64,000 bases of DNA from Actinomycetota bacterium (GTDB lineage Bacteria > Actinomycetota > Actinomycetes > S36-B12 > UBA5976). Below the pieces are notes generated by a model that ran no database searches, was not told the DNA's origin, and worked only from the letters and a program-made list of their open reading frames with translations. Made by a program: the position numbers and the translations under genes. Shown here in pieces: positions 11,186-13,930 of this stretch; the stretch's first letter is position 1; each line of letters starts with the position of its first letter. Where the stretch lies: NCBI GenBank assembly GCA_947452765.1, contig CANGDR010000005.1, positions 1-64,000 on the forward strand. Reading direction: 5' to 3'.

Positions 11186-11620
11186 ATGAGCATAGAAGCA
11201 ACAACTAGCGAGGTTAAACGGATCCTGACCGACGCTATATCAGTTGCAGTAATTGGTGTCTCGAGTAAGCCCGACCGCGCGAGTCACCAAGTTGCTGCCT
11301 ACTTGATCGAACAGACTCACTTTGATGTGTACCTGATAAATCCCGCTGCAACTGAAGACATCTTGGGCCAGCGGGTTTACAAATCGCTCGCAGAACTTCC
11401 GGTAAATCCAGACATCATTGATGTATTCCGTAAGGGCGATGACATGCCTGGGGTTTATGAAAGAGAATTCCCAGCGATAGCTGCAAACTCTGCTGGGAAA
11501 ACTTGGTGGATGCAGCTAGGAATTCGCAACGACGAGGTAGCACAAGTTGCACACGAGGCAGGCATGAAAGTTGTCATGGATCGCTGTATAAAAGTCGATT
11601 ACCAGAATCTAATTAGCTGA
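11186..11620 (+). CDS. CoA-binding protein (YccU-like)
   Basis: 144 aa; SVAVIGVSSKPDRASHQVAAYL, YLINPA, IDVFRKGDDMPG, WMQLGIRNDEVAQVAHEAGMKVVMDRCI. Confidence 0.93.
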   Translation: MSIEATTSEVKRILTDAISVAVIGVSSKPDRASHQVAAYLIEQTHFDVYLINPAATEDILGQRVYKSLAELPVNPDIIDVFRKGDDMPGVYEREFPAIAANSAGKTWWMQLGIRNDEVAQVAHEAGMKVVMDRCIKVDYQNLIS

Positions 11621-11915
11621 CTGAAATTTCCAAGTCCGCGATTTTTCCCAGGTGTGCTTCAACAGTCGTACGTGCCGATCCGCCAGGAATCAATGCCACA
11701 ACATTCCACTTGCCAGGCGCTGCGAAGAATCGAAATTCTCCTTGCGGCGAGACCGGAACTTCGGCCACGAATTCGTCAGACGTATCCAGCAGTCGGACGT
11801 AACCAACTTTCGCTGGTGCTCCAGCCTTGCTAACGACACCCTGAATTACCGATTGAGTTGATACATCAACCAGATCGAGTGAGACTCCGCCAACTACAGC
11901 GCCGCAACTGCTCAT
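11613..11915 (-). CDS. DUF1416 protein (SseC-like)
   Basis: 100 aa; position directly downstream of the sulfurtransferase and carboxypeptidase-regulatory-like beta fold (GYVRLLDTSDEFVAEVPVSPQGEFRFFAAPGKWNVVALIPGG). Confidence 0.88.
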   Translation of the reverse strand: MSSCGAVVGGVSLDLVDVSTQSVIQGVVSKAGAPAKVGYVRLLDTSDEFVAEVPVSPQGEFRFFAAPGKWNVVALIPGGSARTTVEAHLGKIADLEISVS

Positions 11916-12757
11916 GCGGTGCCTGGTTCGTCGCCAACAGCAACTGGTACGCCAACAAGTGAGCCGTACTCAGTCCAGGAACCGTCGTAGTTACTTACAT
12001 TTTTAACGCCAAGTAGTTCGTGTAATACGAACCAGGAGTGCGCAGAGCGTTCGCCGATCCGGCAGTAAGCGATGGTGTCCTTACCAAGATCAACGCCAGC
12101 ACCTTCATAAATTGCCTTTAGTTCAGCAAGGGACTTAAAGGAGCCATCTTCGTTAGCAGCTTTACTCCATGGGATGTTTGCTGCAGTTGGGATGTGGCCA
12201 CCGATACGCGCTGCTTCTTGCGGAAGGTGAGCCGGCGCAAGTAATCGACCTGCGTACTCATCCGGACTGCGCACGTCCACCAGATTCTGGGTGCCGATTG
12301 CTCTAAGCACATCTTCGCGGAACGCGCGGATTGAAAGATCCTGATCCTTCGCAACATATTTAGTTTCAGCGCGGCTTGGAACTTCGCTCACAAGTTCGCG
12401 ACCATCTAGTTCCCACTTCTTGCGACCACCATCAAGTAACCGAACATCGCCATGGCCATAGAGCTTGAAGTACCAATATGCGTAAGCAGCAAACCAGTTG
12501 TTGTTTCCGCCATAAAGCACGACAGTGTCGTCATTGGCTACACCCTTGGCGCTTAATAACGCTTCGAACTGCTCTTTATTTACAAAGTCGCGACGAACTG
12601 GATCCTGCAGATCTGTTTTCCAGTTAAGTGCAATTGCATTACGGATGTGATTGCCGGCATAAGCATCAGTATCTTCATCTACTTCGATGAAAACTGCATT
12701 TGCGTCATCAAGGTGAGCCAGCGCCCATTCGGCGTCGATCAGTGCTTGATTACTCAT
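11912..12757 (-). CDS. Thiosulfate/3-mercaptopyruvate-type sulfurtransferase (two rhodanese domains)
   Basis: 281 aa; LVDVRSPDEYAGR and active-site loop AYCRIGERSAHSWF. Confidence 0.94.
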   Translation of the reverse strand: MSNQALIDAEWALAHLDDANAVFIEVDEDTDAYAGNHIRNAIALNWKTDLQDPVRRDFVNKEQFEALLSAKGVANDDTVVLYGGNNNWFAAYAYWYFKLYGHGDVRLLDGGRKKWELDGRELVSEVPSRAETKYVAKDQDLSIRAFREDVLRAIGTQNLVDVRSPDEYAGRLLAPAHLPQEAARIGGHIPTAANIPWSKAANEDGSFKSLAELKAIYEGAGVDLGKDTIAYCRIGERSAHSWFVLHELLGVKNVSNYDGSWTEYGSLVGVPVAVGDEPGTA

Positions 12758-12788: not shown

Positions 12789-13214
12789 TTATGAAAAAAT
12801 TCGCTTGCCAATTAAATACATTTCGCACCCGAGGCAGAAATTGAAGGCTGCATTTAGGAATGCGGCTGCAAGTGCAAAGCCAACCGAAATAGTTGCAGCT
12901 AAATCCGCTCCTGATAGAAGTGCAGCCAGTCCAACAACTGCGAATAGGAAGCCAACCAGTTGGGCAAAGCGTGGTGGCTCAACGGCTTCTAGCGAAGTTG
13001 GCTTAGCCAGTCTTGGTCCAACAAACTTTCGGTACGCGATTCCGTAAGGCTGCGCTTGCAACCCAACAAATGCGCCAAGCGCAAACACAACTGTTTGGAT
13101 TCCTAACAGCAAGATAGAAACGCTTGATGGGATTGTTAACAGAATTACTGCCAGCACAACAGTGGTAATGGCAGCACCAAAACGAGGGCCGCGTGGATCG
13201 ATTTGCTTGCTCAT
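12789..13214 (-). CDS. DUF4395 membrane protein
   Basis: 141 aa; IDPRGPRFGAAIT, four predicted TMs, FNFCLGCEMYL motif. Confidence 0.9.
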   Translation of the reverse strand: MSKQIDPRGPRFGAAITTVVLAVILLTIPSSVSILLLGIQTVVFALGAFVGLQAQPYGIAYRKFVGPRLAKPTSLEAVEPPRFAQLVGFLFAVVGLAALLSGADLAATISVGFALAAAFLNAAFNFCLGCEMYLIGKRIFS

Positions 13215-13257
13215 AATTTCCTATTTCCGTTCAGATTTGTATCGCTCAGTGTTTCAA

Positions 13258-13279
13258 CGCAGCTTGCAGGGTAGCTGCG
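13258..13279 (-). promoter_or_regulatory. Attenuator-like hairpin directly after the leader-peptide stop
   Basis: Perfect 7-bp inverted repeat CGCAGCT-ACCCTGCA-AGCTGCG (reverse strand), starting 3 nt after the sORF stop codon and ending upstream of the DUF4395 start. Confidence 0.6.
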
Positions 13280-13282
13280 GAA

Positions 13283-13369
13283 TTAGGAGCACATACACAT
13301 GGCGGAGCCAAGGCGGCCGTAATCAACGACCCGACGCTTGATAAGAACTGCGCTTTGTGACATGCCCAT
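13283..13369 (-). CDS. 28-aa putative leader peptide ending in CMCS (not in supplied track)
   Basis: Reverse strand: MGMSQSAVLIKRRVVDYGRLGSAMCMCS*. The RRxVDxxRxxSA pattern with terminal Cys resembles actinobacterial 'putative leader peptide' ORFs. It lies upstream of sulfur-metabolism genes on the same strand. Confidence 0.75.
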   Translation of the reverse strand: MGMSQSAVLIKRRVVDYGRLGSAMCMCS

Positions 13370-13501
13370 AAACTTAGTGGACTTTCCATTTCCAGGTAAA
13401 CCCACAAATAGCAACTGCAAAGATCTCGCAGTACGAGACCAAATTGGCTAATACCTAAATTTCACCTAAGTTCATTACTACCTATTTAATAAGGAGTTTG
13501 G

Positions 13502-13930
13502 ATGTCGACCGGTGGCTACGTCCTAGTTACCGTTCTGGTGCTGTCCGCAGGCTTTGGAATTTATCGAAAACTCAGTGACGGTCGGCTAAAAGTTGAGATT
13601 GTGCCGCCGAAGCTCGGACTAATTGAGCACCTTCATTTGAATCACCAGCACGCTCCCCAGGTGACTTTTTTGCAATTCTCTTCCGAATTTTGTCAGCCTT
13701 GTCGAGTGACCACTGGGATTTTGGAAGTCGTTACGAACAGCTTCCCTGCCATATGCCACATCGAACTAGACGTATTAGAGCACATGGATCTGGTTAAGAC
13801 CTACGGCATTACTCGGACGCCAACCACTTTAATTATTGATAAGGAAGGCACAGTTCATTTCCGAGCCGTTGGCGTGCCAAAGCGGGTTGACCTAGTAAAC
13901 GCGGTATCCGACCTGATTATCGACTCGTAA
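13502..13930 (+). CDS. Membrane-anchored thioredoxin-family protein (ThiX-like)
   Basis: 142 aa; N-terminal TM, active site SSEFCQPCRVT, cis-Pro region RTPTTLII. Confidence 0.9.
   Translation: MSTGGYVLVTVLVLSAGFGIYRKLSDGRLKVEIVPPKLGLIEHLHLNHQHAPQVTFLQFSSEFCQPCRVTTGILEVVTNSFPAICHIELDVLEHMDLVKTYGITRTPTTLIIDKEGTVHFRAVGVPKRVDLVNAVSDLIIDS

Follow-up and report, generated by a model that had tools for sequence, protein, structure and literature searches.

Does the short, Cys-tailed open reading frame on the minus strand of an actinobacterial contig sense cysteine for the genes behind it, and which RNA element would it control? The leader lies directly upstream of a cysA2-type sulfurtransferase operon on the same strand, within a 64,000-nucleotide stretch of DNA (the window). 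The order of DUF4395, sulfurtransferase, and DUF1416 genes given for this operon in the original prediction is borne out by matches to PF14340, PF00581, and PF07210 (Table 1). The spacer between the leader and the DUF4395 gene is 68 nt long, and ranges from 40 to 71 nt in the genus. The leader is likely, in our view, an Ms5788A-type attenuator that acts on translation in response to cysteine. The mechanism and the family have already been described in mycobacteria; what is new here is a refined start of the leader and a specific pairing model. On the other side of the leader, a thioredoxin-like gene is transcribed divergently (13502-13930, plus strand). In other families of the order, inspection by eye shows DUF4395 preceded by a thioredoxin-like sequence in the same orientation, often with no leader between them.

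Table 1 Features of the leader and the downstream operon, in window coordinates.
Feature	Position	Strand	Details
-10 promoter element TAAGTT (TANNNT), predicted	13371..13376	-	7 nt ahead of leader start codon
Leader peptide ORF	13283..13363	-	26 aa MSQSAVLIKRRVVDYGRLGSAMCMCS; mRNA probably leaderless; start at upstream ATG 13369 (28 aa) unlikely
Regulatory Cys codons (putative)	13289..13297	-	TGT 13297-13295 and TGC 13291-13289
Anti-Shine-Dalgarno stretch TCCTAATTCC	13279..13288	-	Last sense codon of leader, stop, and 4 nt after it
Hairpin CGCAGCT-loop-AGCTGCG	13258..13279	-	Perfect 7-bp stem, exact in sequence
Ribosome-binding region GGAAATAGGA of DUF4395	13219..13228	-	Shine-Dalgarno AGGA 13222-13219
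DUF4395 gene (PF14340), first in operon, putatively regulated	12789..13214	-	E 1.1e-39
Sulfurtransferase gene, two rhodanese domains (PF00581), cysA2 counterpart	11912..12757	-	Domain matches
DUF1416 gene (PF07210), sseC counterpart	11613..11915	-	E 1.2e-31

The open reading frame is located exactly where it was first placed, on the minus strand at 13369-13283, with the sequence MGMSQSAVLIKRRVVDYGRLGSAMCMCS* and the stop codon TAA at 13285-13283. Its existence, sequence, and stop position stand as predicted, but the length of 28 aa does not: the leader most likely starts 6 nt further in, at the ATG at 13363. A start at 13369 is unlikely because this position falls within the gap between the -10 element and the start codon. 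We rejected both the 13369 start and a longer, TTG-started reading of 45 aa, as the leaders of relatives begin at the position equivalent to 13363, with the matching -10 spacing. Of the 40 order loci, 39 have a TANNNT motif 6-7 nt ahead of the leader start, and other offsets are nearly empty. The exception, locus L027, was scored at an internal TTG, and by eye its upstream ATG has a TAATTT at 7 nt. The same spacing recurs in 41 of 51 loci from the class and phylum. In M. tuberculosis the -10 motif is TANNNT (PMC3898074); located about 12 bp before a start codon, the motif is the signature of bacterial leaderless genes (PMC3160421). Since the motif sits 6-7 nt before the start, the transcript probably begins with the leader start codon itself, and the mRNA is probably leaderless. 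A terminator-like hairpin is found upstream of the leader promoter (13432-13414, minus strand); such hairpins occur at about the frequency expected by chance.

The peptide is under purifying selection, with a pN/pS of 0.39 overall and 0.21 in the core, and synonymous changes exceed replacements. This selection, together with the conservation of the leader, led us to reject a chance open reading frame. The KRRxVDxxR core is better conserved than the Cys tail. The leader in the window ends in TGT-ATG-TGC, two Cys codons separated by Met and not a consecutive run. The leaders of the order carry at least one Cys close to the C-terminus, and some relatives have CCC.

The leader is present in 20 of the 23 genomes of the genus. 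DUF4395 occurs in 105 of 148 genomes of the order, and we read the region ahead of it in about 90 loci, 87 of which were usable. A leader with the KRRxVD core and a Cys near its end precedes DUF4395 in 40 of these 87. All 30 order loci in which DUF4395 is followed by a sulfurtransferase gene carry the leader, and no sulfurtransferase gene lies downstream in any of the 47 DUF4395 loci without it; the Fisher p for this association overstates the independence of the loci, because they are related by descent. Searched with a profile built from the order-level leaders, 190 of the 247 genomes in the class give a match, and all loci parsed from this search precede DUF4395, sulfurtransferase, or DUF1416 genes. 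The distribution suggests that the leader is ancient and accompanies the sulfurtransferase operon across the class. In class loci L206, L207, L220, L223, L228, and others, which belong to other orders, the leader likewise precedes DUF4395 or sulfurtransferase genes and keeps its promoter spacing. The carriers from other orders include small genomes of about 1.3-1.8 Mb.

The source genome contains only one good match to the leader profile. No leaderless Cys-tailed short open reading frame was detected within about 1.5 kb of the seven PALP and eight Cys_Met_Meta_PP loci examined, in a search with a script that recovered most of the known leaders of relatives. For this leader type, we therefore rejected a genome-wide set of cysteine leaders, given the single profile match and the absence of such frames near the PALP and Cys_Met_Meta_PP loci.

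Leaders with Cys runs upstream of cys operons have been known since Seliverstov et al. 2005 (PMC1262725), and Cys-rich short open reading frames upstream of cysA2/Msmeg_5788 in mycobacteria were described by Shell et al. 2015 (PMC4633059). Cysteine-dependent attenuation in mycobacteria was described by Canestrari et al. 2020, as reported in PMC9031893. The window peptide matches NCBIfam NF042933, the family of Ms5788A-type Cys-rich leaders, with 17.2-17.3 bits and an E of 0.003, below the curated cut-off of 45 bits, and is therefore not classed as a formal equivalog. The same family matches 15 of 19 order-level leaders (best E 1.1e-10), and a profile-profile comparison of the order's leaders with the leaders found by NF042933 gives 97.9% probability and an E of 4.3e-13. 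The loci of NF042933 matches above the cut-off likewise precede sulfurtransferase and DUF1416 or DUF4395 genes. Of all the loci examined from the NF042933 search, most lie ahead of one of these three genes; the few that do not are weaker matches, most of them with a different, RRRHVDLARV-type core. By these sequence comparisons, the window peptide is homologous to the Ms5788A-type family. The proposed link to mycobacterial poly-Cys frames is thus supported by the NF042933 match and the equivalent locus upstream of cysA2/Msmeg_5788 (PMC4633059), as is the predicted reading of the leader as a cysteine attenuator.

The leader in the window shares with mycobacterial Ms5788A the KRRxVD core, a Cys close to the C-terminus, the spacing of TANNNT, and the downstream sulfurtransferase and DUF1416 genes. 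It differs in its score under the curated cut-off, in having two separated Cys codons where Ms5788A has a run, in being followed first by DUF4395, in belonging to another taxonomic order, and in residing in a small genome without a sulfite reductase match. NCBIfam NF042934, a general family named 'putative leader peptide' (cis_reg_atten), matches 10 of the 19 order-level leaders, but at E 1 the window peptide is not among its matches. The LEU element of actinobacterial leuA (PMC1262725) is a parallel of another kind. There too the regulatory codon run of a leader pairs with the Shine-Dalgarno (SD) sequence of the next gene; however, the element responds to leucine instead of cysteine, involves a pseudoknot, and precedes unrelated genes.

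The 7-bp stem 3 nt past the stop codon was predicted at its exact position. The stop is followed by TTC, the arm CGCAGCT (13279-13273), an 8-nt loop, and the arm AGCTGCG (13264-13258). When the 68-nt spacer is shuffled with its dinucleotides preserved, a perfect 7-bp stem of this kind arises in 59 of 5000 cases and is thus by itself only mildly unusual against chance; the case for the leader and the stem must therefore rest on conservation. The stem is kept in relatives, and the comparative check suggested for it gave a positive answer: the arms co-vary, preferring their own partner over swapped ones (17 of 10000 permutations within the genus and none of 10000 for the rest of the order). In folding calculations, the inner pairs of the hairpin form with a probability of about 0.9-0.99. 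The stem is followed by TTGAAACA, and no intrinsic terminator with a U-tract was found between the leader and DUF4395, in agreement with the noted lack of a clear U-tract. We therefore rejected a classical transcription attenuator with an intrinsic terminator, and the preference for translational over terminator control holds. An Rfam search of the window returned no family at the leader. The sole Rfam match in the window is a c-di-AMP riboswitch (RF00379) at 146-319 on the minus strand, whose 64.6 bits exceed the gathering score of 38.

The anti-SD stretch at the end of the leader is more informative than the hairpin named first. TCCTAATTCC (13288-13279) can form 9 of 10 pairs with GGAAATAGGA (13228-13219), and the window's own duplex is the strongest when compared with swapped partners from the genus. 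Over 40 loci, the mean duplex energy is -11.9 kcal/mol with the own partner and -9.5 kcal/mol with swapped partners (0 of 2000 permutations). The preference for the own partner is found inside the genus (144 of 20000 permutations), outside it (9 of 20000), and in the wider class set (127 of 10000); these co-variation figures are strong hints and not exact probabilities, because the permutations leave shared ancestry partly in. In the free full-length fold of the window RNA, the SD helix has a probability of about 0.2, which approaches 1 only when nothing upstream of 13288 is free to pair. As written, the SD helix and the hairpin share base 13279.

A ribosome stalled on the leader was modelled as a 28-nt footprint, of assumed size, whose front edge lies 12 nt beyond the point where the last Cys codon starts. 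Stalling at the last Cys codon raises the mean unpaired probability of the SD from 0.25 to 0.45 (31 up and 4 down, of 40 loci), and with masking placed further upstream it stays at 0.26. The multi-locus effect is stable over 18 settings, in which the 3' end and the edge of the footprint were varied. In the window by itself, the probability goes up in most of these settings, is about unchanged in two, and goes down in one. The effect is weak in other orders of the class (11 up and 4 down, of 25; p 0.05). In the window, the modelled footprint reaches to 13280 and stops one base before the hairpin; by this model, the anti-SD stretch would be masked by a stalled ribosome and the hairpin would not. 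The suggestion that a ribosome stalled at the Cys codons masks the hairpin is thus not upheld: the hairpin begins about where the footprint ends, and the masked element in the model is the anti-SD.

We propose the following switch. Transcription would start at or beside the ATG at 13363, giving an mRNA that opens with the leader frame, read without a Shine-Dalgarno sequence. When cysteinyl-tRNA is plentiful, the ribosome would complete the leader and depart. The freed TCCTAATTCC would then pair with the DUF4395 ribosome-binding site GGAAATAGGA, enclosing the GC hairpin, and the operon would be poorly translated. When cysteine is short, the ribosome would pause at TGT or TGC and cover TCCTAATTC. 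With the anti-SD covered, the binding site would be open, and DUF4395, sulfurtransferase, and DUF1416 proteins would be made. More operon product may then raise sulfur transfer for cysteine supply.

Three other readings of the locus were weighed against this switch. Rho-dependent transcriptional attenuation, in which fast reading of the leader would expose the spacer to termination by Rho and a stalled ribosome would protect it, fits the absence of an intrinsic terminator after the leader and was weakly suggested for mycobacterial cys leaders by Seliverstov et al. 2005 (PMC1262725). We regard it as unlikely, since the spacer is short and Rho alone leaves the co-variation between the leader end and the downstream ribosome-binding site unexplained. 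Still less probable is translational coupling without sensing, whereby translation of the leader would open or feed the DUF4395 start regardless of cysteine. Such coupling needs only a translated leader and a nearby start codon, and re-initiation at leader genes is a general proposal for bacteria (PMC4833913); however, it accounts neither for the Cys codons near the stop in relatives nor for the published cysteine response of mycobacteria, as far as PMC9031893 reports it.

The peptide itself could also act, as an arrest peptide with the KRRxVD core or as a small functional protein. Simple codon sensing does not need a conserved KRRxVDxxR core under purifying selection, and this favors a role of the peptide. 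The leader nevertheless lies just ahead of the operon, and its end overlaps the anti-SD; both observations point to a role in cis, and we give a peptide function little weight.

The proposed cysteine-responsive switch would have a plausible place in the physiology of the cell. No match to the sulfite/nitrite reductase family PF01077 was found in the source genome (91.65% complete), and assimilatory sulfate reduction is absent from cultured acI strains (PMC5301498). Cysteine control of the sulfurtransferase operon would make sense in a cell relying on reduced sulfur. We speculate, with some reservation, that throughout the order the last codons and the stop of the leader double as the anti-SD, so that stop-codon choice and the peptide tail would co-evolve with the ribosome-binding site of the next gene. 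As part of the same tentative proposal, the leader may rank among the very few cysteine sensors that this small freshwater genome retains, and would control the use of already reduced sulfur and not sulfate assimilation.

The proposed switch comes down to an exact and testable alternative of 10 nt against 10 nt. The locus also provides an annotation rule for leaders that gene callers miss: TANNNT, 6 or 7 nt, and a start codon, followed by a KRRxVD core, a terminal Cys, and an anti-SD over the stop. The association hints that DUF4395 and DUF1416 proteins act in cysteine supply. With this leader, ribosome-based cysteine sensing would extend from mycobacteria to abundant freshwater actinobacteria.
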